Of a stretch of DNA of 64,000 nucleotides, positions 302 through 42,561 are shown in pieces. This DNA is from Bacilli bacterium (GTDB lineage Bacteria; Bacillota_I; Bacilli_A; RFN20; CAG-826): contig JAKSVB010000001.1 of assembly GCA_024408335.1 (NCBI GenBank), positions 186,001-250,000 of the forward strand. Direction: 5' to 3'. Position 1 is the first letter of the stretch. Every line of letters starts with the position of its first letter. Both the position numbers and the translations under genes were made by a program. The notes below the pieces were generated by a model. That model was given only the letters and a program-made list of their open reading frames with translations. It had not been told where the DNA came from and searched no databases.

Positions 302-2932
302 TTATTCAACGTCGTTTGGAGTTGGGTTGTTGATTGGTTCAGCTGGTGCTGCTTCCTCTTCAACAACCGCTTCTTCTGCCATTTCTTCAGCGTCAACGTG
401 TGGAACGATTGCAAATGATGCAACCTTGTTCTTTGGATCGAGGTTGATGATCTTAACACCAACGGTGTTACGGCCTGCGATATGGACTTGTGATAATGGG
501 GTTCTGATAACGATACCTTTGTTGGTGATAACCATAAGATCTTCGTCACCGTGGATTGAACGCATGCCGGTTAATTCACCATTCTTTGCGTTTTCTTTAA
601 GTGAAAGGACACCTTTAGCGCCTCTAGAAGTGCGGCGGTAGCCATCGTAGTGTCTGGTTGTTCCGTCTTCTTGGAGAACGTCTGTTTCTTCAGCGTAGCT
701 GATCTTACCGTAACCAAGGGTTGTAAGGACAAGGATCTTATCACCTTCAAGTGATGTAGTTGCGTCGACGAGGTGTGAACCGTCTTTAAGATCCATACCT
801 GTGACACCGGCAGCGCTACGGCCCATTGAACGGACTTCTTTTTCGTCGAATGAACAGACTTTGCCATTGCTTGAAGCGAGTTTAATGATAGCGTTTCCGT
901 CTGTTTTCTTAACACAGAGGAGTTCGTCACCATCTCTTAAGGCAAGAGCTTTCTTACCATTTGAGTGGATGCTTTCGAATTCTGACATTGGTGTTCTCTT
1001 AACAACGCCGTTAACAGTAACGAAGAAGAGGTAGTTTTCTGCGCCATATTCGTCTGCTGGGACGATTGCGACAATCTTTTCTTCTTGTTCGAGGTTGAGA
1101 AGGTTGATGGCTGGCATACCTTTTGAGTCTCTTGCGCCATCTGGGATCATGTAACCACGCATTCTGTAAACCTTACCGAGTGATGAGAAGAACATGATGT
1201 CGGTGTGGGTCTTAGTGTGGAGCATGAGGTGGACGGTGTCACCGCTTGTGGTGGTAACGCCTTTAACGCCACGTCCTCCGCGGTTTTGGGTGCGGAAGGT
1301 TTGGTCATTCATTCTCTTAACGTAACCGTTCTTTGTAAGAACAACGATGATGTCTTCTTGTGGTAAGAGGTCTTCGTTTTCGATTGAAGCGGCTTCGTCT
1401 GTGATTTGAGTCTTACGTTCATCTCCGAAACGTTCGCGGATTTGAGTAAGTTCTTCGATCATAAGGTCGACGATGTTTTGTTTGTCGCTTAAGAGGAAGT
1501 TATAGTGTTCGATGTTTTTGACGAGTTCAGCGTGTTCGGCTTGGAGCTTATCTTGTTCCATGCCTTGTAAACGGCGGAGTGTCATAGCGAGGATTGAGTC
1601 GATTTGAGGTTTTGATAAACCAAATCTTGCTGCTAATTTCTCGCTTGATTCTTCATCGTTTTTGCTGCCACGGATGATGTCGATGACTTCATCGATGTTA
1701 TCGTGAGCAAGGATAAGACCGACGACGATGTGATCACGGTCGCTATCTCTCTTGAGGAGATATTTGGTTCTGTTTGTGAGAACTTCGAATTGGAAAGCGT
1801 TGTAGTTTTCAATGAGTTCTTTCATAGAAAGAACTTTTGGTTCGCCATTAACTAAGCAGAGGTTGATGACGCCATATGTGATTTGCATTGAAGTGTGTTT
1901 AAGAAGGTTATTTGCAACGACTTCTGGGATGAAGTCTTTCTTAACTTCAATGACAACACGTGTACCTTCTTTGTTTGATTCATCACGGATATCAGCAATA
2001 CCATCGATGACCTTATCACGAGCGAGGATAGCCATGTTTTCGATCATGGCAGCCTTGTTAACTTGATATGGGGTTTCGGTGATGATGATACGTGATTTGC
2101 CATTGTTCATTTCTTCGGTGTGGAATTTTGAACGAATAGCGACTGTGCCAGTACCTGTTGCGAAATAGTCAGCGATGCCTTTTCTTCCAAGGATAACGCC
2201 GCCTGTTGGGAAATCAGGACCATAGATGTAGTGTTGCATGAGTTCAAGAGGGGTGATTTCTGGGTTACGTGCAACAGCGATACATGCATTGATGGCTTCT
2301 GTGAGGTTGTGGGTTGGCATATTGGTTGCCATACCGACTGCAATACCTTCAGAACCGTTGACTAAAAGGTTAGGGAAACGGCTTGGGAGAACTGATGGTT
2401 CGATTTCTGTGCCGTCATAGTTGTCGACGAATCCGACGGTGTCTTTATCAAGATCGCGGACCATTTCGACTGAGAGGCGGTTCATTCTAGCCTCTGTGTA
2501 ACGCATAGCAGCTGCTTCATCTCCGTCGATGGAACCGAAGTTACCGTGACCATCAACGAGGGTATAACGCATTGCGAATGGTTGAGCCATACGAACAAGG
2601 GTACCATAAAGTGCTGAGTCGCCGTGTGGGTGATATTTACCCATGACGTCACCGACGATACGAGCGCTCTTTTTGTATGGTTTGCCAGGTTGCATGCCTG
2701 ACTCATTCATACCGTAAATAATACGTCTTTGAACTGGTTTTAAACCGTCACGAACATCTGGGATAGCACGTGCTTCAATGACGGACATTGAGTATGAGAG
2801 GAAGGCTGTTTGGACTTCGTTTGTGATCTCTCTGTCGATAAGACCAGCAGCAATGCCAGCAACAACTTCAGATGGTTCTTCTTTAGCTTCAACTTCTTGG
2901 TTTTCAGCTTCTAATTTCTTTTCTTCTGCCAT
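302..2932 (-). CDS. gyrA: DNA gyrase subunit A
   Basis: Breakage-reunion subunit of type II topoisomerase, 876 residues; with GyrB it introduces negative supercoils. The catalytic tyrosine is Y145 in the motif AAMRYTEAR, and the active-site helix reads [11 protein letters not shown] GyrA-box-like motif, QNRGGRG (about residues 549-555), marks the DNA-wrapping C-terminal domain and supports gyrase rather than topoisomerase IV. An acidic N-terminal extension of about 23 residues precedes the core and the tail is Glu/Ala rich. A strong Shine-Dalgarno (AAAGGAG) lies before the ATG, 17 bases after gyrB. Oddity: the residue equivalent to E. coli Asp87 is Gly110, while Ser83 is kept as Ser106. Confidence 0.97.
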
Positions 2933-2949
2933 AATCTGCTCCTTTCTCC

Positions 2950-5034
2950 TTAGATATCAAGGTTCTTAACGAATTTAGCGTTTTTGATGATGAAGTCACG
3001 ACGTGGTTCAACGTCATCACCCATGAGATCTGTGAATGCTTTGTCAGCCATTGCAGCATCATCAACAGTGATACGGATCATCTTTCTTGCGGCTGGATCC
3101 ATGGTTGTTTCCCAAAGTTGTTGGGCATCCATTTCACCAAGACCTTTATAACGTTGGAATGGGTAACCAGGTTTTAACTGGAGACCTTTCTTGAGTTGTT
3201 CAAGTTGCTCATCGTTATAGGCGTAATAGGCTTGGCCTTTGTACTCAATCTTGTAAAGTGGAGGTTGAGCGATGTAGACATATCCACCGTCGATGAGAGG
3301 TTTCATGAAGCGGTAGAAGAATGTTAAGAGGAGGATTCTGATGTGATCGCCGTCGACGTCAGCATCGGTCATGATGACGATTTTGTGATACCTGATCTTT
3401 TCGACGTTGAATTCATCACGGATACCAGCACCGATTGCGGTGATCATGTTTCCGATTTCAGCGTTTTTGAAGATTCTTTCTTCGGTTGCTTTCTCAACGT
3501 TAAGGATCTTACCTCTAAGTGGGAGGATTGCTTGGGTCTTTCTATCACGGCCGACCTTAGCGCTGCCGCCTGCTGAGTTACCCTCAACGATGTAGAGCTC
3601 ACATTCTTCTGGGATACGGCTTGAACAGTCAGCTAATTTACCTGGAAGGGTTGTGATGCTACCAGCGTTCTTTCTTGTTGCTTCACGAGCAGCTTGAGCA
3701 GCGACACGTCCTTTTGCCGCGCTACGAACTTTGGTAACGATTGCTTTAGCTTGATCTGGGTGTTCGAGAAGGAATTGTCTGAAATGTTCAGAAACGATTG
3801 TTGAAACAATCTTTCTAACTTCGGAGTTACCAAGTTTTGTCTTGGTTTGTCCTTCATATTGTGGGTTAGGGTGTTTGATTGAAATAACGCAGGTAAGACC
3901 TTCACGGCAGTCTTCTGTGGTGAAGTTATTTTCTTTCTCTTCTAAGAGTTTGAATTGTCTTGCATAAGCGTTGATTGCTTTATTTAACGCGATGTTGAAA
4001 CCTTCGACATGGGTACCACCTTCTTTGGTTGAGATGTTGTTACAGAATGAGTAAACACCATCGTTGTTGTAGTAGGTTGTCCATTGTAATGAGATTTCTG
4101 CGTAAATGATTTCTTTGGTAACGCCATCAAGAAGAGTAACTTCTTCAGCGCCACGGCAGTAGATGACGTCTTGGTTAATGATGTCTTTGCCTTGGTTGAT
4201 GAATGAAACATATTCACGGATACCACCGTTGAATTGGAATGTTTCTGAAACAGGGGTTTCTGGACGTTTATCGGTTAACGTGATCTTAACGCCACCATTG
4301 AGGAATGCCATCTGACGAAGGTGGTTTCTAATGGTTTCGTAGTTATAGATGGTTGTTTCGGTGAAGATCTCAGCGTCTGGTTTGAAGTGAACCATGGTTC
4401 CGTGTTCATTTGGACCGCAATCGCCGATTTTCTTTAAGTGTTCGACAATCTTACCGCCATCAACGAATTTGACGTAGTGAATGCCACCAGCTTTCTTAAC
4501 AGTGACTTCACAGAGAGTTGATAAAGCGTTAACGACAGATGCGCCAACACCGTGGAGACCACCTGAGACTTTATAACCGCCGCCTTCGCCGAACTTACCG
4601 CCAGCGTGGAGGATTGTGTATGCTGTTTCGACACCTGATAATCCTGATTTGGCAACAATATCAACTGGGATACCACGTCCGTTATCGCTAACGGTGATTG
4701 AGTTATCTGGTTCGATATAGACTTGAATGTCATCACAATATCCTGCTAAGGCTTCATCGATTGCGTTATCGACGATTTCCCAAACAAGGTGGTGGAGACC
4801 TGCAGCTGCGGTAGTAGCGATATACATACCTGGACGTTTTCTAACAGCTTCAAGACCTTCAAGAACTTGGATGTTTTCAGCTGTGTAATTAGCATCAGCT
4901 TTGACAAGTCCTTTTTCGTCACTGACATCTTCCTTTTTGTATTGGAAGCGGTCTTCCTCTGGCTCAACGGCTGGATTAACCACTTCCGGCTGTTTAGCTT
5001 CTTCGAGAACTTTTTCTTCGTTTTCGTTTGCCAT
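2950..5034 (-). CDS. gyrB: DNA gyrase subunit B
   Basis: ATPase subunit of gyrase, 694 residues. In order: a charged N-terminal extension (about 45 residues), the GHKL ATPase domain ([32 protein letters not shown]), the transducer, and the TOPRIM domain with the acidic metal site DADVDGDHI near residue 560, ending in the [21 protein letters not shown] region. The TOPRIM signature reads [10 protein letters not shown], with Asn486 where most bacteria have Asp. AAGGAGGT precedes the ATG. It sits 4 bases downstream of recF and directly upstream of gyrA, the standard Bacilli arrangement, so the three are co-transcribed. Confidence 0.97.
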
Positions 5035-5038
5035 TCTT

Positions 5039-6112
5039 TTACCTCCTTATAACGGTATTTTGGCTGGAGATTTCAATATATGAAGCTCCATCTATTTGTG
5101 CTCCCGTGGTTGTCACAAACACCTGTTTCAAATGTTTTGTGATTAGATTAGAGAGTCTTTTAGCGTGTTCAGCGTCTAATTCACTGTAGATGTCATCTAA
5201 TACGGTGATTGGACGTTTGTCCTCATCTTCGATTAGGAAGAAGGGGGCGATTTTTAAGGCGATTGCCGCTAAACGGTTTTCACCTTGACTTCCATACAGC
5301 GAGATATCAGATCCATCGAGGAGCAATGAGAAGTCTTCGCGGTGGATTCCAATCGAAGTCACTTTATGAGCTAAATCGCTTTCAAGTGATCGCTTATAGG
5401 CTTTTTCCATTTCATCTTTCCAGTTGTTTTGGTTTTTGATGAACGGTTTGTAAACGACGAGAATGCGTCTATCGTGCCCGTAGAGTTCGCTCGCAAGGCC
5501 GGATAGGATTTTATTCAAGCCATTAATGTATTCGCGTCTGTGGCGGCTTATAGGCTCACTAACCTCGATTATTTGATTTGTGAGCACTTGGATGAGTTCG
5601 ATGTCTGGCGTTGGAGCTTTGAGAGCTGCATTCCTTTCTTGAAGCAAATGGTTGTATTTACCGATGAGGGTGAAATACTCGTTTGATTTTTTGGAGAGGT
5701 TTGCATCTAGGAAGGATCTCCTATCCGCCGGTGAGTTTTTGAAGATGCTAACATCCTCAGGTGAGAAGAGTGTCACATTGAAGAGTTTTGAGAGTTCACT
5801 CAATCGGCGAGCTGGTTTGCCATTGATTGATATCTTTCTTCCTTTTGGGATGATTGAGATTTCAATCTGTCGTTTGATACCAGCTTCCTCAATCTTAGCT
5901 TTTATGTAAGCGTTTGATTGTCCTTCTTTGATGAGCGCGGACGCTTCATTCACTCTCCAACTCTTGGCGAAGCTTAGATAATAAACAGCTTCAACAAGAT
6001 TTGTTTTTCCAGAACCGTTAGTTCCTTGAATGACGGTGAGTCCATCATTGAAGTCGATCGATAGTGAATTGTAGTTTCGGAAATTTCTCAATTCTAAGTG
6101 AGTTAATCTCAT
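5039..6112 (-). CDS. recF: DNA replication/repair protein RecF
   Basis: SMC-like ATPase that helps load RecA at single-strand gaps, 357 residues, the usual size. It begins [14 protein letters not shown], has Walker A GTNGSGKT at residues 30-37, an ABC-type signature near YGSQGENRL, and Walker B followed by [12 protein letters not shown]. Its ATG overlaps the stop of the upstream S4 gene as ATGA, so the two are translationally coupled, and gyrB follows after 4 bases. Confidence 0.95.
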
Positions 6113-6333
6113 TCTTGGGTAATCTTGAACGTTCCTTCAACTAATTCAATAACGTCATCAACTCTTAATTTGCGGCCACGACGATTATCAGATTCACCGT
6201 TGATTAAGACTTCATGAGTAGCGAGATAAGATTTAGCTTCCCCGCCCCAAGAAATAACATCAGCGAATTTGAGTAATTGGCCTAAGGTTATGTATTCCGT
6301 GTTGATAGCGATCTCTTTGATTGTTTTTGACAC
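6109..6333 (-). CDS. yaaA: S4-domain RNA-binding protein YaaA/RlbA
   Basis: A 74-residue protein that is essentially one S4 RNA-binding fold (LGQLLKFADVISWGGEAK, then EVLINGE and RGRKLRVDDVIEL). In Bacilli this small protein lies between dnaN and recF, as here. The start is a GTG at 6333 preceded by AGAGGT about 8 bases upstream. The stop is TGA within the ATGA overlap with recF, which shows that TGA terminates translation in this genome. Its exact role is not established; binding to structured RNA is the family expectation. Confidence 0.88.
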   Translation of the reverse strand: MSKTIKEIAINTEYITLGQLLKFADVISWGGEAKSYLATHEVLINGESDNRRGRKLRVDDVIELVEGTFKITQE

Positions 6334-6346
6334 TATTTTGACCTCT

Positions 6347-6372
6347 ATAATAGTTTACTACTAAGTAGTAAA
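6347..6372 (-). promoter_or_regulatory. Putative promoter and palindromic operator of the yaaA-recF-gyrBA unit
   Basis: Read on the minus strand, a TATTAT box (6347-6352) lies 13 bases upstream of the GTG start of yaaA. Immediately upstream is a perfect inverted repeat, TTTACTAC-TAA-GTAGTAAA (6354-6372), filling the spacer where RNA polymerase would sit. No convincing -35 hexamer is seen. The repeat is a candidate operator; the regulator is unknown. Confidence 0.45.
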
Positions 6373-6399
6373 AAAAGGAATGATTAATTTCACTCCTTT
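6370..6399 (-). terminator. Rho-independent terminator after dnaN
   Basis: On the minus strand, AAAGGAGTGA pairs with TCATTCCTTT (one G-T pair) around a six-base loop and is followed by a run of T. It lies 35 bases after the dnaN stop and separates dnaN from the yaaA-recF-gyrBA unit. Confidence 0.75.
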
Positions 6400-6433
6400 T
6401 TAGCATGTAAATTTATTTAAATTTATTCGATGT

Positions 6434-7555
6434 TTAGCGTGTTCTCATTGGGGTGATGAGTTCAACGACGGAATCATCTTTTGGATCGAGAACAACGAAT
6501 GGTTTCATCTCACCGACGAATTTGAGGGTGACATCTTCCGCTCCTAAAGCTTTAACGGCTTGTGAAACGAAGAGAGCGTTGAACGCGACTTCTAATCTCT
6601 CGCCTTGATATTGGATGGTTGAGAGTTTTTCTGAACCAGAACCGTTTTGGTCGCCTGAAGAAGAGATTTCAATGCCTTCAGAATTCATAGAAAGCTTTAC
6701 TATGGCCGCGCGATCGCTGGAGAGGATGGAAACACGGTCGATAGCGTTAAGAAGCTGTGAGGCGTTAATTTGGAGCGAATAATTGAAGTTTTGAGGGATA
6801 ATTGAATTCTTAACTGGGTATTCACCACCAATGAGTCTGGTTGAGACAACGGTTTGGCCGAAAGAAAGGATCATCTTTTCGCCTGTTGAACAAACTTCAA
6901 CTTCATAATTGTTTTCAAAAAGCTTAACGATGTCAGTAATGGTCTTTGCAGAGACGTTAGCGTTGAAGACGATAGATGAGTCGATCGCCACCGCTTTTCT
7001 CGAAAGACGGGCACTATCTGTGGCTAATGCAGTGAATTGGCCGCCTTCGGCTTTGAGGTTAATTGCGTTTAAGATTGGTCTTGTATCTTTATCAAGTGCA
7101 GCAAAAGCTGTTTGCTCAACAAGTTTTGTTAATTCGGTACATCCGATTGAGAATGTTGAACCTGTCTTTTCGAGATCAATATCAGGATATTCATCTGAGT
7201 TCATGCATGGTAATTTGAAGACGGAGTTACCATCATCAATCTTTGCGATGCTTTCATCAATAACATCTAATGAAAGTTCACTTCCTTCCATCTTTCTAAC
7301 GATTTCGGTTAAGAAGTGAGCGTTGATTAAGGATGATCCTAAACTGTAATTTCTAATGATCTCTTTTTCGTTTAGTTTTAAAGGTACTCTTGTGAAAACA
7401 GTGACATCGCCATTAAAAGCTGTGATTTCCAAACCGATGGTTGTCATTTCTAATTTGAAACATAAGAGTTGTGGCATCGCGTTCTTTGGACTGATGCCTC
7501 TTCCAGCAATAAGAAGACCTTTCAAAAACTGTTCCTTATCAATCGTAAATCTCAT
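6434..7555 (-). CDS. dnaN: DNA polymerase III beta sliding clamp
   Basis: Ring-shaped processivity clamp, 373 residues, the typical length. It begins MRFTIDKEQFLKGL and has the three repeated clamp domains; the C-terminus ends LITPMRTR, as is characteristic of the family. AAAGGAGAGATCC precedes the ATG. It lies downstream of dnaA across a 150-base gap that holds DnaA-box-like sites and an AT-rich stretch, and is followed by its own terminator. Confidence 0.95.
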   Translation of the reverse strand: MRFTIDKEQFLKGLLIAGRGISPKNAMPQLLCFKLEMTTIGLEITAFNGDVTVFTRVPLKLNEKEIIRNYSLGSSLINAHFLTEIVRKMEGSELSLDVIDESIAKIDDGNSVFKLPCMNSDEYPDIDLEKTGSTFSIGCTELTKLVEQTAFAALDKDTRPILNAINLKAEGGQFTALATDSARLSRKAVAIDSSIVFNANVSAKTITDIVKLFENNYEVEVCSTGEKMILSFGQTVVSTRLIGGEYPVKNSIIPQNFNYSLQINASQLLNAIDRVSILSSDRAAIVKLSMNSEGIEISSSGDQNGSGSEKLSTIQYQGERLEVAFNALFVSQAVKALGAEDVTLKFVGEMKPFVVLDPKDDSVVELITPMRTR

Positions 7556-7580
7556 TTTGGATCTCTCCTTTTCTATTACT

Positions 7581-7635
7581 TAATTTTTATTATATTAATT
7601 ATATTAATAATATGTATTGTGGAAAATGTGGATAT
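7581..7635. other. Downstream half of bipartite oriC (DnaA boxes and AT-rich stretch)
   Basis: Between dnaA and dnaN there is an almost pure A/T run (7581-7616) directly beside two abutting DnaA-box-like sites, TGTGGAAAA (7618-7626) and TGTGGATAT (7627-7635), each with one mismatch to TGTGGATAA. In Bacillus subtilis the corresponding dnaA-dnaN gap (incC) holds the unwinding element next to DnaA boxes, so this is the likely unwinding site. Confidence 0.6.
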
Positions 7636-7705
7636 CTTTGTGATTTCTTATGAAATTGATGTTTGTTTGATATTTACAAAATCCACTAAACATTACTTAT
7701 ATCCT

Positions 7706-9067
7706 TTATTTTAGTTTACCTCTTAAAGTATTGATAGCATGTTCCATCTCTTTGTTAGTTCTACACTCGTTTTCCACTTTCGTGACAGCGTTCATAACAG
7801 TGGTGTGATCACGGCCTCCGAAATACTGGCCGATTTTCACAAACGGAACATCTAATAACATCCTTATTAAATACATAGCGATATGTCTTGCCATGGCTAT
7901 TTGAGCGGTTCTCACTTTACTTGTTAATTGGAATGGTGTGAGGTTGTAATACGCTGCAACGGTTTCAGTGATTCTCTTTTCTGAAAGCTTTTGCTCATCA
8001 TCTTTAACGTCTGTTAACGATTTAACTGCTTCCATAGCGGTATTTATATCGATGTGTTTTGTAGGTTTGATGTTGATAACGTAGAAGAGAAGTCTGGCTA
8101 AAGCGCCTTCAAGCTCTCTGATGTTTCTTCCAAACTTATCTGCTAAGAAAGAAATGACCTCTTCATCAAAATCAGAGATTTTTAACCCATCATCCGCTTC
8201 GATTTTCATTTTCAGAATAGCTTCACAGGTCTCTTTTTCCGGCGTGTTGATTGATAAAGGTAATCCTTGAGTGAATCTCGTTTTTAAACGATCATCGAGA
8301 TTATCTAATTTATTAGGATGTTGATCGCTGGTTAAAACGATCTGCTTATTCATTGAATAGAAGTTGTTATAAATAGAGAAGAAAGTCTCTTCCGTGGCTT
8401 TTTTGTTTGATAAGAATTGAACATCATCAACCAAAAGAACATCTACCGAATTCTTAAACCAATCAACGATGCTGATCCCCTCTTTATCTCCTTTTACATA
8501 TTTAACATATTCATCAAGGAACTCTTGAGCGTGAATATATAACACTCTTAAGGTTGGGAATCTTTGTTTTATAGCGTTCCCTATCGCATGGAGTAAATGT
8601 GTTTTTCCAAGACCGCTATCACTATATAAGAATAAAGGGTTATATAAATTACCTGGATTTTGGCTGATCATTAAGCTTGCTTGATAAGCTTCAAGGTTCG
8701 AATTACCAACAACAAAACTCTTAAATGTATAATTAGGATTCAACACAGAATCACTAAAATATGTTGGTTTTGCAGGCATTTTCTTAATTGAAAGGTTGCC
8801 TAAATCGCTTTCAGTCACAAAAAGAAAATCAAAATCACTACCAGTAACTTCATTGATGGATTGATTAACAACATCGATATATTTCATTTTGATAATAGTC
8901 GCTGCTAAACCACTATTAACAACCAAAACAATCTGATTTTTATCTACCTCGTGAATGTAGCTGTTTGCGAAAAACGAATCGTAAACAATGTTATCGTTCA
9001 ATTTCGCTTTTATCTTGTTTAGGGTTCGATCCCATAAAGCTGTTAATTCTGATACTGTTAATTCCAT
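7706..9067 (-). CDS. dnaA: Chromosomal replication initiator DnaA
   Basis: AAA+ initiator, 453 residues from ATG at 9067 (MELTVSELTALWDR). A TTG 21 bases upstream would add seven residues but lies at or before the expected transcript start. Domain I is at the N-terminus, with a short linker; the AAA+ domain has Walker A SDSGLGKTH, Walker B VLLVDDVQFL and the arginine-finger region FGRNIRELEGAL. Domain IV ends with the DnaA-box-reading motif GGRDHTTVMNAV. It is flanked on both sides by DnaA boxes, consistent with autoregulation. Confidence 0.96.
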   Translation of the reverse strand: MELTVSELTALWDRTLNKIKAKLNDNIVYDSFFANSYIHEVDKNQIVLVVNSGLAATIIKMKYIDVVNQSINEVTGSDFDFLFVTESDLGNLSIKKMPAKPTYFSDSVLNPNYTFKSFVVGNSNLEAYQASLMISQNPGNLYNPLFLYSDSGLGKTHLLHAIGNAIKQRFPTLRVLYIHAQEFLDEYVKYVKGDKEGISIVDWFKNSVDVLLVDDVQFLSNKKATEETFFSIYNNFYSMNKQIVLTSDQHPNKLDNLDDRLKTRFTQGLPLSINTPEKETCEAILKMKIEADDGLKISDFDEEVISFLADKFGRNIRELEGALARLLFYVINIKPTKHIDINTAMEAVKSLTDVKDDEQKLSEKRITETVAAYYNLTPFQLTSKVRTAQIAMARHIAMYLIRMLLDVPFVKIGQYFGGRDHTTVMNAVTKVENECRTNKEMEHAINTLRGKLK

Positions 9068-9090
9068 AAATAATCTTTCTGCGCCCAAAG

Positions 9091-9120
9091 ACTATAACAC
9101 ACATTAGTCATAAATATGAC
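9091..9120 (-). promoter_or_regulatory. dnaA promoter region with palindrome
   Basis: On the minus strand a TATAGT box (9091-9096) lies 23 bases before the dnaA ATG. Just upstream is a perfect 14-base palindrome, GTCATA-AA-TATGAC (9107-9120), positioned over the expected -35 region. No good -35 hexamer is visible. The palindrome is a candidate binding site for a regulator of replication initiation. Confidence 0.4.
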
Positions 9121-9400
9121 TGTGAAAAATACACCTAATTGAGTTTTCCACAATTCATATCCTAAAAACACCCATAAACACAATGATTTTTCAATTTGTC
9201 CATAATACCATTGTGGAAAACTTGTGGATAGATTGTAAAAATTAGTAATTTTGTGGATAAAAATTTAAATCAAAAACATATCCACAATTACAATTAATTC
9301 TAAAAAACACACATCAACTCTACATTTTTAAATAATCAACAATATTAACAACATTCAATTAACAGAAATGTGGATAAACTAATTTCACATTATTTTTCTT
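9121..9400. other. oriC: Replication origin oriC, upstream DnaA-box cluster
   Basis: The 578-base gap between dnaA and rpmH is AT rich and holds two perfect DnaA boxes (TGTGGATAA at 9252-9260 and 9369-9377). One-mismatch sites are TGTGGATAG (9223-9231), ATATCCACA (9278-9286), TGTGGAAAA (9212-9220) and TTTTCCACA (9144-9152). Genes on both sides point away from it. This matches the incAB half of a Bacilli-type bipartite origin. Nothing else was recognised between 9400 and 9575. Confidence 0.9.
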
Positions 9401-9580
9401 TTAATCAACCTATCAAAAAAAGTAAATATTACAAAATCGCCAACCTTTGAGTAAACACGAGGAAATCATGAAAATTGTAAATGTGTTTTTATATTGATTT
9501 TCCTCATCAACAGAAACCATGTTTTAGGCTTTTCGATAAGATGAAACACACACGCGCGAATAAAGAAGTGCAAAAAGAGT

Positions 9581-9609
9581 TTGCCTTAGAAGTTTGTAAA
9601 ACTTATAAT
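9581..9609 (+). promoter_or_regulatory. Promoter of rpmH-rnpA-yidC
   Basis: TTGCCT (9581-9586), a 17-base spacer and a perfect TATAAT (9604-9609) form a housekeeping sigma promoter. The predicted transcript start near 9616 leaves a leader of about 30 bases with a GGAGG site before rpmH. Confidence 0.85.
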
Positions 9610-9645
9610 CTATGCGCACATCAGTGAACCTCGGAGGAAACTATT

Positions 9646-9809: not shown

Positions 9810-10136
9810 ATGAAGAAAGAAAACAGAATTCTCACATACTCAGAGTTTTCTGAGATTATCTCGACAACCAGGCGTATAAGAACACCACATTTCTTAATTA
9901 ATTTTCGTGTTTCTAACGAAAACAAAGCTCGCATTGGTGTATCTGTGAGCAAAAGAAATGGCAATGCGGTCACCCGCAACAAAATCAAAAGACAAATCAG
10001 ATACATTGTAGGCAAGAATTTCGACATGAGTCGCCCAGTAGATCTTGTGATTGTGGCGCGTGCCACATACAACTACTTGGATTTTGCTCAGATAGAGAAT
10101 GAACTCATAGATGTTCTTTCCCACATCGGAGAATAA
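9810..10136 (+). CDS. rnpA: Ribonuclease P protein component
   Basis: Protein cofactor of RNase P, which matures tRNA 5' ends; 108 residues. It begins MKKENRILTYSEFSEI and carries the conserved basic helix RNKIKRQIRYIV (after SKRNGNAVT) that contacts the RNA subunit. It lies 26 bases after rpmH, and yidC starts 4 bases after its stop. The RNase P RNA gene was not seen in this window. Confidence 0.93.
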   Translation: MKKENRILTYSEFSEIISTTRRIRTPHFLINFRVSNENKARIGVSVSKRNGNAVTRNKIKRQIRYIVGKNFDMSRPVDLVIVARATYNYLDFAQIENELIDVLSHIGE

Positions 10137-10140
10137 AACA

Positions 10141-11757
10141 TTGGAAAAACGTACAAAATTCAAATTATTAGGAGTGTTTGGCCTTTTAGCAGGGGCTGTA
10201 ATGCTTTCAAGCTGTGTTTCGAATTTCTGTTCTGACGTTGAAAAAGCAAGAATTGCTTACCCATATGAGCAAGGCGTTACAGTTTATGTCGATGGACAAA
10301 GCGCCGTTCCTCAAGAATACAGAGATAATGGCTTAGCTTTTAACCCAATCGAAGGTAATACAGAGCTTTGGGCATACATCCCAGTTAACCCAACTGGCTA
10401 TTTTGCTGCAAACAAAGCATCGTTCTTAAACACAAATATCCTTGCTGCAGCTAAACAAAACGGAATCGCAACACCTTCCTACGATTACTTCAAACAACTC
10501 GACCAAAAGGTTTTAGAAACCGCTATTTCAGCCGCTAAAGCCGATGGTATTACAGTTAATGAAGCAACCTTAACAGCCGCACAAATCAACCCATTCAGCG
10601 TAGCTGACTGTATCGGTAATGAAAAAGGCGTCACAGAAAACAAAGATAGTATTCTTAGAAATTACGGCTACTTAAAATTCGTCACTGAAAAGAAAGATAG
10701 CGCCACAGCAAAGAACACCGTCACATTCGATTTCGGCAACTGGCAAAAATGGAATGATGAGATCGAACAAAAGATCGAAACCGAAAAACCAGGAAGCGGA
10801 TCTTCAAACGTTCCAAACGCCGAATACGTTACAATCTACAAAAAAGTCTTTAATGACTTAACTGCAAACATCCGTACTTGTATCACCACAAAAGAAGGCT
10901 CATATGGTCAATATGGTCCAAATTCAAATTGGTCGATCAAGATGGAAACAATCACTTGGGGAGACGCATGGTCACATGGTCTTTTCGAGGGTTTAATCGT
11001 CTACCCTGTATCCGCATTGATGGATAGCTTAAGTAATGCATTCGACCCAGGTTTATCTGGTATCGGTCAGATTTGGGCTTTAGTCATCACCACAATCATT
11101 GTTAGAGCGTTTGTTACTCTTCTCACTTTCAAGAGCACAATGGATCAACAAAAGATGCAGGCTCTTCAACCACAAATCGCAAGAATCCAAGCTAAATATC
11201 CTAACAGCAACACAAATAAAGCTGAACAGGCTAAGTTATCACAAGAGACAATGACTCTTTATAAGAGAAACAACATTAACATGTTCTCTTCAATCATCGC
11301 CCTCTTTGTTCAATTCCCTGTCTTCATTTCTGTTTGGGGTGGATTACAGGGGTCAGCCGCCTGATCAAGCGGTCAAGTCTTAGGACTTCGCTTATCAGAT
11401 ACAATTGCCAGCGTTTTAGGTAATTTCAGCGGAGCTTGGTACGCCAACGCTAATGGTTGGTGGACAGCAGCCATCCTCTTTGTTCTTATGGCAGCAATCC
11501 AATTCGTTGCTATGAAACTTCCACAATGGATCACAGCAAAGAGAACCAAGAAAATGTCAAAAACATCTGCAAATCCTGCAGCTGAGAAGTCAAACAAGAC
11601 CATGAAAAACGTCTCTTGGATCATGTTAATCATGACAATCGTTATGGGCTTCATGCTTCCAGCGGCAATGGGTGTCTATTGGGCAATCGGTGGCTTAGTC
11701 CAAATGGCTCAAACCGCTATTACACAAACAATCATGGCCCGCAAACAACGCAAATAA
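10141..11757 (+). CDS. yidC: Membrane insertase YidC (lipoprotein), interrupted by an in-frame TGA
   Basis: YidC/Oxa1 insertase that places proteins in the cytoplasmic membrane. The best start is TTG at 10141 with GGAG about 10 bases upstream; an ATG at 10111 lies inside rnpA. A lipobox (MLSSC) follows a signal segment. About 240 extracytoplasmic residues come before the first core helix, much more than in usual Gram-positive YidC. The core has the conserved MQALQPQIARIQAKYP loop and later helices to PAAMGVYWAIGGL. Codon 408 (11362-11364) is TGA, yet the frame continues unchanged with clear YidC sequence to TAA at 11757. TGA ends other genes here, so this is a nonsense mutation, a base-call error (for example from TTA) or programmed readthrough. 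Confidence 0.85.
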
Positions 11758-11775
11758 TCTTAGGAGATTTTGAAT

Positions 11776-12381
11776 ATGAAACACTTCACAAGCAAAACCG
11801 TCGAAGACGCAATTGAGGCAGCAAGTAAGGCCGTAGGCATTCCTGCTGAACAACTCATCTATAAAGTCATCGAAGAAAAGAAAGGCTTGTTCGGAATTGG
11901 CCGTGAAGCCACCATCGAAATTTACGATATTGATGATGCAGCAGCGTTTGCTGAAGAATACATCAAGACCGCTCTTGGCGGTATGGGTGTTGAAGCCGAA
12001 ACAACATCGACAATCGATGAAGGAATCATCCATTTAAACATCAATTCTGAAAGAAACCCTATTCTCATCGGTAAAAACGGCAGAACACTTCAAGCTCTTA
12101 ATGAGCTCACAAGATTAGCTGTCAGCAACAAATTCCACCACAGATACAGAATCCTTCTTGATGTCGGCGGATATAAAGAAGACAAATATGATCGTCTTGA
12201 ATGGATTGCTAAAAAGACAGCACGTGAGGTTCTTAAGACCAAAGTTGATGTCAAACTCGATCCAATGACAGCCGACGAAAGAAGAGTCGTTCACAACACT
12301 CTCAACGGCATGGCTCACATCAAAACCGAATCAAGCGGTGAAGGTCGCGATAGAGCTATCACAATCAAATACGTTGATTAA
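11776..12381 (+). CDS. jag: RNA-binding protein Jag/KhpB
   Basis: A 201-residue protein with an N-terminal Jag domain (KTVEDAIEAASKAVG, then EEKKGLFGIG), a KH domain with the GKNGRTLQALNEL loop, and a C-terminal R3H domain (DERRVVHNTL, ending RDRAITIKYV). In Firmicutes KhpB pairs with KhpA to bind RNA and influences cell elongation and division. The ATG at 11776 has AGGAGA upstream; an in-frame TTG two codons earlier is less likely. It follows yidC by 18 bases and ends just before a terminator, closing this operon. Confidence 0.93.
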   Translation: MKHFTSKTVEDAIEAASKAVGIPAEQLIYKVIEEKKGLFGIGREATIEIYDIDDAAAFAEEYIKTALGGMGVEAETTSTIDEGIIHLNINSERNPILIGKNGRTLQALNELTRLAVSNKFHHRYRILLDVGGYKEDKYDRLEWIAKKTAREVLKTKVDVKLDPMTADERRVVHNTLNGMAHIKTESSGEGRDRAITIKYVD

Positions 12382-12418: not shown

Positions 12419-12440
12419 AAGAAAATTTTTTCTTAGAATG

Positions 12441-12446
12441 TATAAT
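12441..12446 (+). promoter_or_regulatory. TATAAT box directly before mnmE (leaderless promoter)
   Basis: A perfect TATAAT lies six bases before the mnmE ATG at 12453, and no Shine-Dalgarno sequence is present. The expected transcript start coincides with the start codon, which predicts a leaderless mRNA. No strong -35 hexamer is visible. Confidence 0.65.
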
Positions 12447-12452
12447 GAGTAT

Positions 12453-13784
12453 ATGAATAACGTTATTATTGCTTTAGCCACACCACCACTTAAAGGAGCC
12501 CTTGCCCTGATTAGGCTCTCTGGAAACGGTGTTTTTGATATCACAGACCAAATATTCTCCAAAAAAGTCAGTGGAACAACCAATAGAGACATCTATTATG
12601 GCTCCATGAAGGATGAAGATGGAAACGTCATTGATATGGTCGTCGTTTACGCCTACAAAGGCCCAAATACCGCCACTGGAGAGGATGTAATTGAAATCTC
12701 CTGCCATGGCTCGATGCTTATCGTAAATCAAATCGTTGAAGCGTATCTAAAGAGAGGTGCAACATACGCCACAAGAGGAGAATTCTCTTCTAGGGCTTTT
12801 TATAACGGCAAGATGGACCTTATTGAGGCCGAATCAGTTAATGATTTAATTAACGCCACAACAATTGAAGCAAAAAACCTTAATTTGATGTCTTTAAGAG
12901 GAGAAACAAGCAGATTGGTGGATCCTCTTAAAAAGTCTATTGCGGACCTTCTTTCGCTTATCGAAGTTAATATCGATTATCCAGAATACGACGACATTGA
13001 AGAAGCAAACAAAGAGACAATTGCCCATAAGGTTGATGACATTAGAAAAACAATCGCTAACCTCATCAAAGGCGGCAAAGAAGGAAAAATTGTCAAAGAA
13101 GGCTTAAACGTAGCCATTGTTGGTGAACCTAACGTTGGCAAGTCTTCCCTCTTAAACGCTTTAATGAACGAAGATAAAGCTATAGTTTCTGATATTCCAG
13201 GCACAACAAGAGACGTTGTTGAAGGTGACATAGCAATCAAAGGCATCCAACTCCATCTTTTAGATACTGCTGGTATTAGAGAAAGCGATGACAAGATTGA
13301 GTCTTTAGGCATCGCAAAAAGCGAACAAATGATATCAAAAGCAGATTTAGTTATTCATGTTATTGACGCTAGAAAAGGCGAATCCGATGAGGATTTGCGC
13401 ATAAAATCGCTATCAGAAGGCAAAATTTATGTTCAAGTCTTTAATAAAGCAGACCTTATTTTAACTAAAGAAGAAGGGCACATCTATATAAGCGCACTCA
13501 ACAAAGACATAAAAACCCTTTTAGACCAAGTCTACGATGAGCTTGGCTTGTCAGACGACGCTTTCAAATCCCCTTCTCTTTCAAGCGCAAGACAACTTGG
13601 GCTTCTTATGAAGATTGACCAAGATCTTTTAAAAGCAAAAGAAGATGCTTTAAAGGAACTCCCAATAGATTTAGTTTCAGTTAGCTTAATGTCCGCCTAT
13701 AACGGCTCCAGGGAGCTTTTAGGCGAGGGAGCTACCATGGATTTGACTGATGAGATCTTCTCTCGTTTCTGCGTAGGTAAGTAA
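12453..13784 (+). CDS. mnmE: tRNA modification GTPase MnmE
   Basis: With MnmG it installs the cmnm5 group on wobble uridine of tRNAs; 443 residues. The N-terminal folate-binding domain contains ALALIRLSG. The G domain has P-loop GEPNVGKSSL, switch region PGTTRD, DTAGIRE and the NKAD base-recognition motif. The C-terminal helical domain ends with FCVGK, the expected catalytic Cys motif. The chosen start (MNNVIIALATPP) aligns with the family; an ATG five codons upstream would overlap the TATAAT box. tatD follows after one base. Confidence 0.95.
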   Translation: MNNVIIALATPPLKGALALIRLSGNGVFDITDQIFSKKVSGTTNRDIYYGSMKDEDGNVIDMVVVYAYKGPNTATGEDVIEISCHGSMLIVNQIVEAYLKRGATYATRGEFSSRAFYNGKMDLIEAESVNDLINATTIEAKNLNLMSLRGETSRLVDPLKKSIADLLSLIEVNIDYPEYDDIEEANKETIAHKVDDIRKTIANLIKGGKEGKIVKEGLNVAIVGEPNVGKSSLLNALMNEDKAIVSDIPGTTRDVVEGDIAIKGIQLHLLDTAGIRESDDKIESLGIAKSEQMISKADLVIHVIDARKGESDEDLRIKSLSEGKIYVQVFNKADLILTKEEGHIYISALNKDIKTLLDQVYDELGLSDDAFKSPSLSSARQLGLLMKIDQDLLKAKEDALKELPIDLVSVSLMSAYNGSRELLGEGATMDLTDEIFSRFCVGK

Positions 13785-13785
13785 G

Positions 13786-14559
13786 ATGTTAGACTCACAC
13801 TGCCACTTAGACGATTCTTCTATCTACGAAGATAGAGAAAGAATAGTAAAAGAAGCCAAAGAAGCAGGCGTTTCTTTAATGATCACTATCGGATGTGATT
13901 TGGAATCATCAAAGAGAGCCATAGAAATCGCCCACGAGTTTGAGGGTGTTTACGCTGCAATAGGCTTCCATCCGCAAAACCTTGAGAACGTTAGTGATGA
14001 TGCGCTAGAAGAAATAAGAAAAATGGCTTCTGATAAGAAGGTTGTCGCCATTGGTGAAATCGGCCTTGATTATCACTGGTTCAAAGAAAAGAGCGAACAC
14101 GATAATCAAAAGGTTTGGTTCAACAAACAAATCGATCTAGCAAACGAACTTCATTTACCTATATCAATTCACGCTAGAGACGCCACAGAAGACACATACG
14201 AAATGTTAGTAAACAACCCACCAAAATATGGCGCCGTCTTACACTGTTATAGCGGTTCAACCGAGATGATGGATAAGTTTGACAAGTTAGGTCTTTACTA
14301 TGGATTCGATGGCCCAATTACCTATAAAAATTCTGTAACTCCAAAAGAGAATGTTAAACGTTGTCCAATAGATAAGATACTTACCGAAACGGATTCGCCA
14401 TACCTTACTCCTACCCCGTTCCGCGGCACCTTAAATGGACCAAAACACATCAAGGAAATCCTTCAAGAAATGGCGAATTTGCGTGGGGTTTCTATAAATG
14501 AAATGGAAATTGCTGTGGAAAACAATTTCAAGAGGCTTTTTGAGACAAATGAAGATTAA
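13786..14559 (+). CDS. tatD: TatD family metal-dependent deoxyribonuclease
   Basis: A 257-residue TIM-barrel hydrolase of the amidohydrolase superfamily. Metal ligands are visible in MLDSHCHLD, in AIGEIGLDYHW and in the downstream His segments (PISIHARD, VLHCYSG) and TETDSPYL. The ATG comes one base after the mnmE stop and the 3' end overlaps rnmV by 11 bases. The tatD-rnmV-ksgA order is standard in Firmicutes, where the enzyme is assigned to nucleic-acid quality control. Confidence 0.93.
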   Translation: MLDSHCHLDDSSIYEDRERIVKEAKEAGVSLMITIGCDLESSKRAIEIAHEFEGVYAAIGFHPQNLENVSDDALEEIRKMASDKKVVAIGEIGLDYHWFKEKSEHDNQKVWFNKQIDLANELHLPISIHARDATEDTYEMLVNNPPKYGAVLHCYSGSTEMMDKFDKLGLYYGFDGPITYKNSVTPKENVKRCPIDKILTETDSPYLTPTPFRGTLNGPKHIKEILQEMANLRGVSINEMEIAVENNFKRLFETNED

Positions 14560-15091
14560 ATACCCAAACGTAATTGTTGTTGAAGGCAAGATGGACAAAG
14601 ACTTATTGGAGTCGTTTTTGGAAGTTGATATTGTAACTACAAATGGCTCTGAAGTTTCACGTGAAACCATAAATTATGTCAAAGAACTGTCCAAAAACAG
14701 AAATGTCGTAGTGCTTACTGACCCTGACGCTCCAGGAAAGAGAATCCGAGATATTTTGAACTCCGAAATTCCAGGTTTATATAACGCCTTCGTTCCAAAA
14801 GAGAAATCTATTAAAAAACATAAGGTTGGAGTCGCTGAATGCGACAAGAAAACGATTCTTGAAGCGTTAGAAAACCTGATGTGCCCAGTGGCAGATGTAC
14901 CAGATTCTGATTTAACGATGGCGGATTTGTTCGAATTTGGATTAACTGGCCATCAAAACTCTGTGGAGATTAGAAAAAAGCTTGAGAACGCTTTGCATAT
15001 TGATCAAGTTAATGGCAAGACCCTTCTTAAAAGGCTTAAGGCTCTTGGAATTAACAAAAAGGATTTAGAGGAGATTATCAAAAATGGATGA
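14549..15091 (+). CDS. rnmV: Ribonuclease M5
   Basis: TOPRIM nuclease that matures 5S rRNA, 180 residues from ATG at 14549. The TOPRIM motifs are VVEGKMDKD near the N-terminus and LTDPDAPGKRIR. The chosen start, MKIKYPNVIVVEG, matches the family; in-frame ATG codons further upstream lie deeper inside tatD. It ends with TGA, which overlaps the ksgA start. The product acts with the ribosome and KsgA neighbours in rRNA maturation. Confidence 0.92.
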   Translation: MKIKYPNVIVVEGKMDKDLLESFLEVDIVTTNGSEVSRETINYVKELSKNRNVVVLTDPDAPGKRIRDILNSEIPGLYNAFVPKEKSIKKHKVGVAECDKKTILEALENLMCPVADVPDSDLTMADLFEFGLTGHQNSVEIRKKLENALHIDQVNGKTLLKRLKALGINKKDLEEIIKNG

Positions 15092-22773: not shown

Positions 22774-23496
22774 ATGAAGAAACACGAACATCTGTTTGGA
22801 AAAGACTTTTTTGGTCCAATTGCCCATAGAGGGTTACATGATTCTGTTTTAACAGAAAACGGGATGAAAGCGTTCGAAAAAGCCGTTTCGAACAACCTTC
22901 CTTTTGAATTCGACATCCATTTAACCAAAGATGGGGAGCTTGTTGTTTGTCACGATGACGACTTGATTAGAACCACAGGCAAAGCCGGAATTATCGAAGA
23001 ACTCACTTTGAAAGAGATCAAAGAGAATTACCGTCTTTTAGACGGCGGGGAAATTCCAACATTAAAAGAAGTAATGGATATGAACCAAGAAAGAAGCCTG
23101 ATGGTTATCGAACTCAAGGTTCACGAAGGAAAAAACTATAAAGAACTAGGCAAAGCAGCCGTTAAAGCTCTCAAAAACGTCAAAGACAAAAAGAAATACA
23201 CAATTATTTCGTTCGATCCTAGGGCTTTGGCACAATTCCTTTTCAAAGGGTTTGCCTTGCAGCTTCTTGTATGCAAAAAGTACGAAAACGCATGGAAATT
23301 TAAATGGTTATTTGGTTCCGTAGATGTCGAATCGTGTATGTTAAAAGAGCCTAAAGTTATCAAATACAGGAAGAAACACATCGTAAATGTTTGGACGATA
23401 GAGTCTGAACAAGAAATGATAGACTACAAAGAATATGCGGATGCTCAAACATTCCAATTCATTCCGCCAGATAGAGTAAAAGAGATACTTTTGTGA
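22774..23496 (+). CDS. Glycerophosphodiester phosphodiesterase
   Basis: A 240-residue TIM-barrel enzyme of the GDPD family. It shows the catalytic IAHRGLHDS...TENGMKAF segment, the metal ligands FEFDIHLTKDGELVVCHD, and ends with the family-typical VNVWTIESE. No signal peptide, so it should act in the cytoplasm, releasing glycerol 3-phosphate from glycerophosphodiesters. TATAAT at 22761-22766 lies 7 bases before the ATG without a Shine-Dalgarno, predicting a leaderless start. The stop is TGA. The FGGY kinase gene follows after 25 bases. Confidence 0.9.
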   Translation: MKKHEHLFGKDFFGPIAHRGLHDSVLTENGMKAFEKAVSNNLPFEFDIHLTKDGELVVCHDDDLIRTTGKAGIIEELTLKEIKENYRLLDGGEIPTLKEVMDMNQERSLMVIELKVHEGKNYKELGKAAVKALKNVKDKKKYTIISFDPRALAQFLFKGFALQLLVCKKYENAWKFKWLFGSVDVESCMLKEPKVIKYRKKHIVNVWTIESEQEMIDYKEYADAQTFQFIPPDRVKEILL

Positions 23497-25630: not shown

Positions 25631-25717
25631 AATATTTCTCCGAAGTACGTCTTATCTTATTCAATACGAAAAATTAGTCAATTAAAAAATGCTGAAAAGA
25701 CTGATTTTTTGGTGTTT

Positions 25718-26653
25718 TTACTCTGCAGCCTTTTCTTTTAGGGAGAGAGATTTTTTGGAAAGGAAGAAGAACAATGCGGCCGATCCGATTAAGAGTAATG
25801 AGCCGACAATCCATTCAACAGTTGTGACCGATGAGTATTTCCACACAAGGGTGTCGTTTGTGATCATGCTTTGGTTGAGATACATCGAAACGAGGGACCC
25901 GACAATAAAGCCAAATACTGCGAAATATGTTTCGTCATGGAACTTAGCTAAAAGACCCTTCATGAGCTTGCTTGTGAGGATAAAGCCTGCAACGATTCCA
26001 ACGAGGAGAGAAAGGGTTAAGAACATGCCGCTGACAAGTCTAGCGTGGTTATGAAGAATTGAGTTTTCGCCAACGTAAATGTTGAGGACAGGGTCATATA
26101 GTCCAGCAACAAAGAGGATCATAGCACCGCTTATTCCAGGGATGATACAGGCCATGGCTGCAATGAATCCAGCCACGAAAACGCCTATATAAGTCCACCA
26201 TTCTCCAGCCACAAACGCAGCATCAAAATTGCCCCAGTTGTTTAACTTAGCAATTGCACTTAATACGCCAATACCTGCAGCAAACAAGGCACCAATAATA
26301 ACTAAAAAGATAGGTTTTGCAGTGATTTTGACACCCTTAAGCTCTTTGGTTATGACTGGCAATGAACCAATAATCAAGCCGGCAAAAAGGGAGATAATTG
26401 CAAAAGGAGCATAGTCCAAACCGAATCTAACTCCAAGCATACAGATGATAGCAGAAACGACCGCGCCAATACCTAAAGGAAGAAGAGAGACAAAACTCTT
26501 TTTGAACTCTTTTCTTAAGGCTGATATGCCGTCAATCAAACGATCATAAATACCAGCAATGAGGCCCATTGTACCTGCGCTAACACCAGGAATCATTCCA
26601 AGGCCTAAGGAACCGCCTTTAAGGACGTCTAATAACCACTTCTTATATTTCAT
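25718..26653 (-). CDS. DUF368 (PopT-type) undecaprenyl phosphate flippase
   Basis: A 311-residue polytopic membrane protein of about eight to ten helices. It carries the family signature GMIPGVSAGTMGLIAGIYDRL at the N-terminus and the repeated IIPGISGAMILFVAGLYDPVL in the middle, the inverted-repeat hallmark of DUF368. Members (PopT) have been shown to recycle undecaprenyl phosphate across the membrane for wall synthesis. A TATTAT box lies 6 bases before the ATG with no Shine-Dalgarno, suggesting a leaderless start, divergent from the flavodoxin gene. Confidence 0.88.
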   Translation of the reverse strand: MKYKKWLLDVLKGGSLGLGMIPGVSAGTMGLIAGIYDRLIDGISALRKEFKKSFVSLLPLGIGAVVSAIICMLGVRFGLDYAPFAIISLFAGLIIGSLPVITKELKGVKITAKPIFLVIIGALFAAGIGVLSAIAKLNNWGNFDAAFVAGEWWTYIGVFVAGFIAAMACIIPGISGAMILFVAGLYDPVLNIYVGENSILHNHARLVSGMFLTLSLLVGIVAGFILTSKLMKGLLAKFHDETYFAVFGFIVGSLVSMYLNQSMITNDTLVWKYSSVTTVEWIVGSLLLIGSAALFFFLSKKSLSLKEKAAE

Positions 26654-27820: not shown

Positions 27821-27835
27821 CCATAGGAGGCATTT

Positions 27836-30800
27836 ACGGATTTATTTGAAAGCTTAAAAAACTTAGATTTGACCACCCCCCTCTCGAACAAAAGGGGTCA
27901 TTTTGTCGTGGACGATACTATTGGAGCGGCGCTTCTTATTGCTTCGTTATACGGCCAAAAGAAGGATAACTATTCAATCGTTGCAACAAATCTCTATAGC
28001 GCTCAAAAAATCTACGAATTCCTGCTTAATTTCTTGCCAGAAAACAAATTGATATTCTTTCCTGCAGATGAGCTTCTTAGAGCAGAAGCTTTATCGTCCT
28101 CAAAAGAGCTTATGGCCCAAAGACTGTATGCCATGGGACAAGCAATAGAGGCAAAGGATTCCATTTTGATTACGCATCCATCTGCGGCGATGCGTTTCTT
28201 GCCTTCAAAAGAAGAGTTTAAGAGGCACGTTCTCGAGTTTGAGAAAGGAAAAAAGCTTAGTGTCACCGAAGTTAGAAAAAGACTAACGGAGATGGGGTAC
28301 CGCAGAGTCAACAAAATTGACCAAACGCTTCAATTTGCATCCCGCGGCGACATCCTTGATATCTATTCGGTAAACTACCCAAAACCTATACGTATTGAGT
28401 TCTTTGATGATGATATCGAAGCAATCAAATTTTTTGAAATTTCCAGTCAAATCTCGGCTGAATCACTGGAAAAGGTTACTGTTTTGCCAGCATCTGACAT
28501 CTTTTTATCAGATTCAGAAATCGCTGAATTTAAAACAAAAATCGTCGCTTTATTAGAAAACGACAGGAAACACCTATCCCCAACGTCTTATGAAGATCTT
28601 GTAAGAAACGTCGAAAATGATATTGCCGATATCTCTGAGAGGTCTTATAAGCCAATTCTCTACAAGTATTTGGGTTTTGCTCTTGGAAAAAACTCAAATA
28701 TCTTCTCCTATTTCAATTCGTCTTTTACTTATGTTGCTGAGAAGAATACGTTCGATGAATCCTGCGGCTCTCTTTTCGATGAGGCAATGGTTTATTACTC
28801 AGAGCTTCATGAGAGCCTACGTATCCCAACACATTTGGCTGAATATCTCTCTCCGGATAGCGTTCTTCCAACAAAAGGAGTTAGATACGGCAGCAAGTTT
28901 GCCACTTCGGCAGATGATTTTGCGTTAATTGTCAGACACATCGTTTCTGCCGGTGTTGGAATAGCCGCTATGGTGCCAACAATCGAGAGTTACCTCAAAA
29001 CAAACAAGAAGGTCATAATCGCTCTTGAACAATCGCAGCAAAGAAAAACATGTATGTCTTTCCTTGATGAGGCAGGCATTAAATACGAGGAAACCAGAGG
29101 TTTTGAGCTCCCTAAAGGCAGTTTAGGCATCACCAGCGCAACCCTAAACGAAGGTTTTGAGATACCTTCCCTTGAGCTTGCTGTTTTATCCGCTTCAGAG
29201 CTTTATGGAAAGAGAGTTGCGACCACCCGTTTCTCGTCAAGGTTCAAAGACGCAGTTATTTTAAAGAATCACGATGATCTAAAACCAGGCGATTACGTGG
29301 TCCACGAATACAACGGAATCGGCCAGTTTATTGAAGTTACTACACTCCTTGTTGATGGCAATCATAGAGATTATTTGAGAATCGCATATGCAAACAATGA
29401 AACACTATATGTTCCTTTGGAACAATTTAGATTAGTCAGAAAATATTCGGGAAGAGAAGGCGCAGCGCCTCGTTTATCACACCTTTACAGTGGCGAATGG
29501 GAGAAAAAGAAGGCCCATATCAAAGAAAGGGTCAACGATCTTGCTGATAGACTTTTAACTTTATATGGGACGAGAGCCAAAAAAGAAGGCTTTGCCTTCC
29601 CGCCAGACGACGAATTGCAGCGTGACTTTGAGATGCAGTTCCCATACGACTTAACTAAAGACCAGCAAAAGTCAGTCGACGAAATCAAAGCCGACATGGA
29701 AAAGCCTGAGATCATGGATCGTCTTTTGATTGGAGACGTTGGTTTTGGAAAGACGGAAATCGCGTTTAGAGCCGCGTTTAAAGCTATTTCTGCTGGAAAA
29801 CAGGTAGCGTTATTAGCCCCAACGACTCTTTTAGCAAGGCAACATTACGAGGTCGCGATGCAAAGATTCGCCCGTTTTGGGGTACGTATCGCCGTTCTTT
29901 CGAGAATGGTTTCGAACCAAAGACAAAAAGAATTCATCCAAAGAATCCAAGAAGGCAAAATCGATTTAGTTGTTGGAACTCACAGAATTCTTTCTAAAGA
30001 AATCATTTGGAGAGACCTTGGTCTTTTGATAGTTGATGAAGAGCAACGTTTCGGCGTTGAGCAAAAAGAGAGGATCAAGGAAATGAAGAATACGGTAGAC
30101 GTTCTTTCACTTTCTGCCACCCCAATCCCTAGAACACTCCAGATGTCCTTGGTAGGAATCAGGCCTCTTTCTCAAATCAACACAGCGCCTCAGACAAGAA
30201 TGCCTATCCAAACATATGTCACGCCATATAGGGAAGAGGCAATTATTGAACTCATCAACCGTGAATTAGGAAGAAACGGTCAGGTCTTCTACGTATATAA
30301 CAAAGTCGCATCGATTTACGCTAAAGCAAACGAGCTTTCCCGCGCTCTTCCATACGCAAATATTGGGGTTGTGCATGGAAAAATGGAGAAAGATGAGGTC
30401 GAAGACGTTATGCAGAAGTACTACGACAACGAGATCAATATCCTCGTTTGTACTTCGATTGTTGAAAACGGAATCGACGTCCCTAATGCGAATATGATCA
30501 TTGTCGAAGACGCAGATCATTTTGGCCTTTCTCAGCTATATCAAATCAAGGGTCGTGTTGGTCGTGGAGATCGAATCGCCTATGCTTATTTGACATACAA
30601 ACCTCAAAAGGAAATGAGGGAAGATGCCGTCAAACGTCTGCAAGCAATCCAGGAATTCACTGAACTCGGAAGCGGTTATAAGATTGCCCAAAGAGACCTA
30701 ATGATTAGAGGCGCTGGCGATATGCTTGGACCCGAACAAGCTGGTTTTATTGACTCAATCGGCCTCGATCTCTATCTCAAAATGCTTAATGAGGCTATCG

Positions 30801-31300: not shown

Positions 31301-31315
31301 TGGTACAATAAGGCA

Positions 31316-31588
31316 ATGAGAATTGATAAATACCTAAAGGTCACCCGTCTAACAAAGAGAAGGGAAACCGCAAAAGAACTTTGTGAAGACGGAGACGTCA
31401 TAATCAACGGCAAAGTCGCAAAGCCTATGACTGAAGTCAAAGTGGGCGATGAGCTTGTTTTGATGCTTGGAAAACACAAAATCACTTCAAAAGTGCTAGA
31501 AATCCGTGAATTTGCAAGAAAAGATGAAGCAAAAGGGATGTATGAAATAGTTAACGATGAAATAATTTCAAGGGGAGAAGAACAATGA
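31316..31588 (+). CDS. rqcP: S4-domain protein RqcP (YabO)
   Basis: A 90-residue heat-shock-15-like S4 protein beginning MRIDKYLKVTRLTKRRETAKELC. RqcP works with RqcH on stalled 50S subunits to add alanine tails to nascent chains. Position between mfd and tilS is as in Bacillus (yabO). An extended -10 element, TGG-TACAAT (31301-31309), ends 6 bases before the ATG with no Shine-Dalgarno, predicting a leaderless transcript. The stop TGA overlaps the tilS start as ATGA. Confidence 0.88.
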   Translation: MRIDKYLKVTRLTKRRETAKELCEDGDVIINGKVAKPMTEVKVGDELVLMLGKHKITSKVLEIREFARKDEAKGMYEIVNDEIISRGEEQ

Positions 31589-42530: not shown

Positions 42531-42561
42531 AAAATAATTTCATTAAAGAAAGGAAATAATT

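Follow-up and report, generated by a model that had tools for sequence, protein, structure and literature searches.

The order rnpA, jag and mnmE around yidC is the usual setting of the spoIIIJ-type gene in Gram-positive bacteria. The self-regulating programmed frameshift of prfB at CTT-TGA-C is a classic, known case of TGA-dependent recoding; where TGA serves as an ordinary stop, a T after it makes an efficient termination context. For the insertase itself, passages of PMC7618853 describe severe impairment of energy metabolism and growth when YidC is lost or depleted, and in passages of that paper and of PMC4124156 the segments TM5 and TM6 (E. coli numbering) are said to border the groove or to pack against TM2 and TM3.

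In the window analysed here, a stretch of 64,000 nucleotides from the assembly of a Bacilli bacterium, this gene neighbourhood holds a yidC reading frame with a sole interruption, a TGA at codon 408 of 538 counted from a TTG start (Table 1); a same-frame ATG lies upstream of that start, at 10111. When the TGA is read as a residue, the product is recognised as a member of PF02096 with 113.6 bits against a cut-off of 35, over positions 2-162 of the 163 in the profile, and the TGA breaks the coding frame within this domain. The 60KD_IMP profile matches at positions 2-87 before the TGA (4.1e-23) and at positions 100-162 after it (2.2e-7; 31.4 bits when scanned alone, the curated cut-off being 35). 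The 130 codons 3' of the TGA have gene-like codon usage and can be aligned to the YidC of two relatives, which excludes a chance open frame; the homologue in one genome, G028, aligns over 10141-11754 at 53%, with a single stop. Structures of B. halodurans YidC2 (3wo6 and 3wo7) also align on both sides of the TGA, at residues 278-399 and 469-526. An earlier note on this DNA had described an insertase frame that stays in register across codon 408, with clear family sequence for 130 codons beyond it, and both statements hold. From the structure alignment and the hydrophobic stretches, the TGA would lie past the second core transmembrane segment, and a 407-residue product ending there would be without the final three segments, probably including the equivalents of TM5 and TM6 in E. 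coli numbering.

Table 1. Features of the window around the interrupted yidC, and other open reading frames ending in TGA
Feature	Position	Strand	Basis or remark
rnpA (Ribonuclease_P), upstream neighbour of yidC	9810-10136	+	Pfam
yidC reading frame	10141-11757	+	TTG start, final stop 11755-11757, one interruption
In-frame TGA, codon 408, Leu in relatives	11362-11364	+	sequence and relatives' loci
130 post-stop codons, homologous to the YidC C-terminal transmembrane part	11365-11754	+	profile, codon usage, relatives, structures
jag/khpB (Jag_N, KH, R3H), downstream neighbour of yidC	11770-12381	+	Pfam
mnmE (TrmE_N, MnmE_helical)	12438-13784	+	Pfam
TGA-ended ORF, S4_2	6109-6333	-	Pfam
TGA-ended ORF, Toprim/DUF4093	14498-15091	+	Pfam
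TGA-ended ORF, GDPD	22774-23496	+	Pfam
TGA-ended ORF, S4	31316-31588	+	Pfam
Fifth TGA-ended ORF	25689-26054		no Pfam match

Upstream of this group, minus-strand genes (302-9088) face the plus-strand rnpA-yidC-jag-mnmE series across a low-GC gap (GC 0.262 at 9000-9499). The part of the window from 302 to 9640 looks like a replication-origin region; the S4_2 gene is the only one that Pfam identified in it.

That TGA is reassigned in this genome, or decoded as selenocysteine, is scarcely credible, even though TGA is uncommon as a stop and ends just 38 of the 259 stop-to-stop frames that reach 150 codons (some of them not genes) in a 318,779-base sample, which comprised the window and 13 further stretches and amounts to 23.6% of the assembly. 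RF2 is neither lost nor altered: prfB scores 460.3 bits against a cut-off of 370, and its coding sequence, starting at position 1434 of locus L032 (G000:C12), runs for 25 codons ending in CTT TGA C, after which homology goes on at +1. Such a frameshift is sensible only where TGA is a stop, which argues against reassignment. ARAGORN, run on the stretches around 44 Rfam places, returned 43 distinct tRNAs (the tRNA-Asp(GUC) on C6 and that on C17 are one sequence), none with a UCA anticodon, and the single tRNA-Trp has CCA. For selA there was no match in the genome, and all eight matches to tRNA-Sec were below cut-off, the best reaching 43.6 bits against 47 at C15:100605, a place that ARAGORN assigns to tRNA-Ser(UGA); of the gene and the tRNA expected alongside a selenoprotein, neither gave a match over the cut-off. 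The earlier note had counted at least four other genes here for which TGA is a true stop and had considered a code change unlikely. Four domain-bearing genes of the window do end in TGA, and relatives have Leu at the yidC site rather than Trp, Cys or Gly. Release factor, tRNAs, tRNA-Sec, selA and stop usage all lead us to reject recoding. The prfB profile also has a second, sub-threshold match of 286 bits at C1:133861, which we take for a putative RF1.

The residue at the interrupted site is uniform among close relatives. Leu stands there in all 29 aligned congeneric loci, encoded by CTT, CTC, CTA, CTG, TTA or TTG. A yidC match was found in 58 of the 61 genomes searched, the window's own included (G024, G027 and G047 gave none), and the matches in the 57 others contain no internal stop, two of them (G019 and G030) being partial and ending short of the TGA site. 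A wider set of 80 named loci, which shares some genomes with the congeneric set, has Leu in 52, Val in four, Ile and Ser in one each and no residue at the site in 22 alignments; in its Bacilli-type loci (L034-L076) the residue is Leu in 43 of 43. Among the assemblies examined, the TGA is thus peculiar to this one. TTA, which ranks second among the Leu codons in the long frames of the window (417 TTA, 536 CTT), is a single base away from it, and its history is explained most simply by one substitution at 11363. The nearest relatives reach 70% identity in a scan of genome contigs, a set that may omit the organism's own or very near genomes; by DNA the best is 72% (36 relatives, 22 congeners, with G023 and G031, whose proteins rank among the closest, outside the set), and the best protein identity of a yidC match among the genomes searched is 76%. 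With these figures (72% and 76% at best), neither the DNA nor the protein comparison turned up another genome of the species. A pattern of the site that allowed any base in the middle of the codon had no match in viral_contigs, and megablast against phages had none either.

Two of the relatives' loci deserve mention in their own right. In the congeneric genome G019, which is 96% complete, the YidC match consists of 58 C-terminal residues in a 60-residue frame (G019:C9:38200-38373). The record CAMBSI010000026.1 (L072) is titled as a Staphylococcus epidermidis metagenome-assembled genome and holds a yidC of this uncultured Bacilli kind, with 45% identity across residues 2-266 of the 268 in the query; the record is probably mistitled.

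Beyond the TGA the gene carries no sign of decay. Against the eight nearest aligned relatives, identity is 0.75-0.78 before the TGA and 0.72-0.76 after it, pS is 0.63-0.78 before and 0.63-0.71 after, and pN is 0.15-0.17 before and 0.20-0.22 after. Against 21 congeners that lie further off, the downstream 124 codons have a mean identity of 0.600, where the eight relatives' own values are 0.590-0.622; for the upstream part the figure is 0.645, and 0.664-0.672 for the eight. Since the downstream identity to distant congeners matches that of species with intact genes, the sequence after the TGA is, by this measure, without excess decay. The TGA is recent or not real.

The yidC gene is not alone in being interrupted in this assembly. 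A BPD-type permease, presumably PotB-like, lies on the minus strand at G000:C16:54746-55597 (L175:14746-15597) and has an in-frame TAG at residue 137 of its frame; with X in place of the stop it scores 26.0 bits for BPD_transp_1, the cut-off being 26.4, and 34.3 bits in another scan. At the TAG site, 27 of 29 loci fetched from other genomes could be aligned, with Arg in 16, Lys in 10 and Thr in one; Lys is the residue in each of the five nearest. Because stop, ancestral residue and contig all differ between the two genes, no single recoding rule explains both, and the two stops fit isolated substitutions, whether errors in the consensus, minority variants or true nulls. These are the two clear stop-interrupted genes among 14 pairs of adjacent frames that passed a screen of the 318,779 bases, which took open frames of at least 50 and at least 100 codons with gene-like codon usage and so overlooks frameshifts and any shorter pieces. 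Five pairs other than that of yidC were checked by Pfam: that of the permease; L167 and L170, which proved to be separate neighbouring genes; window 27827-31585, whose second piece, scanned alone, has an S4 domain of its own; and L165, which has no Pfam domain. The remaining eight were set aside solely for a start codon 0-6 codons from the stop.

Other checks gave few interruptions. None of the 37 ABC_tran matches genome-wide has an internal stop. A tblastn comparison with two relatives flagged 33 of 92 ORFs from these genomes, either for stops or for matching in two frames; judged by their positions, most look like ORFs on the wrong strand of a gene or in a wrong frame of it. The best non-overlapping intervals number 29 and cover 34,506 bases, none past 42,789, and three of them contain stops, of which we read a within-gene interruption in yidC only. 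At 5105-6376 the frame of the relative extends past the gene at 5039-6112 on its upstream side, across the intact S4_2 gene, and at 42511-42789 the stops, at columns 9 and 12, come ahead of the first ATG. The alignment of 37817-39901 with G028 was also flagged, for a stop at column 15; the G007 match there starts at 37910 and has none. The assembly is mostly sound, with occasional stop-making substitutions.

We consider it probable that the TGA is not biology of the genome, its likeliest source being either a consensus error or a minority variant. An isolated substitution at 11363 would then have turned a Leu codon of the sole yidC found into TGA in the assembled consensus, either as a plain error or because the assembler put a minority variant into the draft while most cells keep an intact gene, and the consensus base would be wrong or unrepresentative. 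The assembly is probably metagenome-derived, to judge by how the records of related genomes are titled. Leu in the relatives, the 57 genomes with no stop, the lack of decay and the second, unrelated stop in the permease all support an error or variant. The scarcity of interruptions speaks against error, with only two clear ones in the sampled bases, 0/37 in ABC_tran and 28 of 29 window intervals free of a within-gene stop, as does the position of both genes away from contig ends, where errors would be commoner. What tips the balance towards error is that no spare gene was found, since a search for a second yidC in the assembly (96.44% complete) gave a single PF02096 match, taken together with the severe harm of YidC loss described in those passages of PMC7618853. 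A real and recent nonsense mutation is the more doubtful reading, even if the base is there in the assembly. The cell would be left with a 407-residue YidC, with little or no activity tolerated, or the TGA would be a costly segregating variant. The interrupted permease is what a strain accumulating nulls would be expected to show, and the absence of downstream decay is also compatible with a very recent mutation; a true null is nonetheless hard to reconcile with the single PF02096 match, with the damage that YidC loss does in the bacteria studied (PMC7618853, in the parts cited) and with the loss of helices that include TM5 and TM6, placed along the groove or packed on the core according to the same parts of that paper and of PMC4124156.

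Readings in which a real TGA still allows the second half of the protein to be made are far less likely. Readthrough at some level by a near-cognate tRNA, enough to supply full-length YidC, would agree with an intact downstream frame free of excess decay and with a single yidC, and is improbable all the same: a stop used in this way would be conserved in relatives, where a sense codon stands in 29 of 29 congeneric loci and none of the matches has a stop; the base after the TGA is T, an efficient termination context; no UCA tRNA was found; and the RNA 3' of the TGA folds not clearly better than its shuffles (z -1.14, with 26 of 200 at least as good). That the TGA is fixed in the species, with tuned readthrough giving mostly the 407-residue form and little full-length insertase, is even harder to credit. 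A split YidC, its second half made by translation restart after the TGA, has very little in its favour beyond recognisable domain sequence in both halves, given that the first in-frame ATG, GTG or TTG comes 41 codons on, at 11488, that by eye the 20 bases before it hold no Shine-Dalgarno-like sequence, and that the relatives' matches have no stop here. Our literature search found no paper on an in-frame stop codon or readthrough in yidC, which does not imply absence from print. The earlier note had left a single-base change, a consensus error and readthrough side by side, and had proposed looking at the residue in related genomes and for a second gene copy; relatives do show a sense codon, for Leu, at the site, an outcome that the note had named as refuting its observation and that makes the TGA peculiar to this assembly among those examined; readthrough has become unlikely, and the search for another copy came back empty.

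A wrong base would matter for annotation alone, where it leads gene callers to a truncated YidC. Should the base be right, a bacterium whose single YidC is broken would offer a useful way to ask how much of the insertase is needed. Nothing found favours such a single broken YidC over an error or a recent null.

Set beside known systems, the gene is a YidC/SpoIIIJ-type insertase by its 60KD_IMP domain, its neighbours rnpA, jag and mnmE, its alignment to YidC2 and, by eye, a lipoprotein-like N-terminus with LSSC, but it differs in having one in-frame TGA at residue 408, the place of a Leu in relatives. With the prfB frameshift it shares an in-frame TGA ahead of continuing homologous sequence, whereas in yidC the homology stays in register and the TGA follows GCC, not CTT. 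The interruption also resembles a nonsense substitution or draft consensus error, an isolated base change in one genome whose assembly has a second, unrelated stop, although here the gene that it strikes is usually indispensable.
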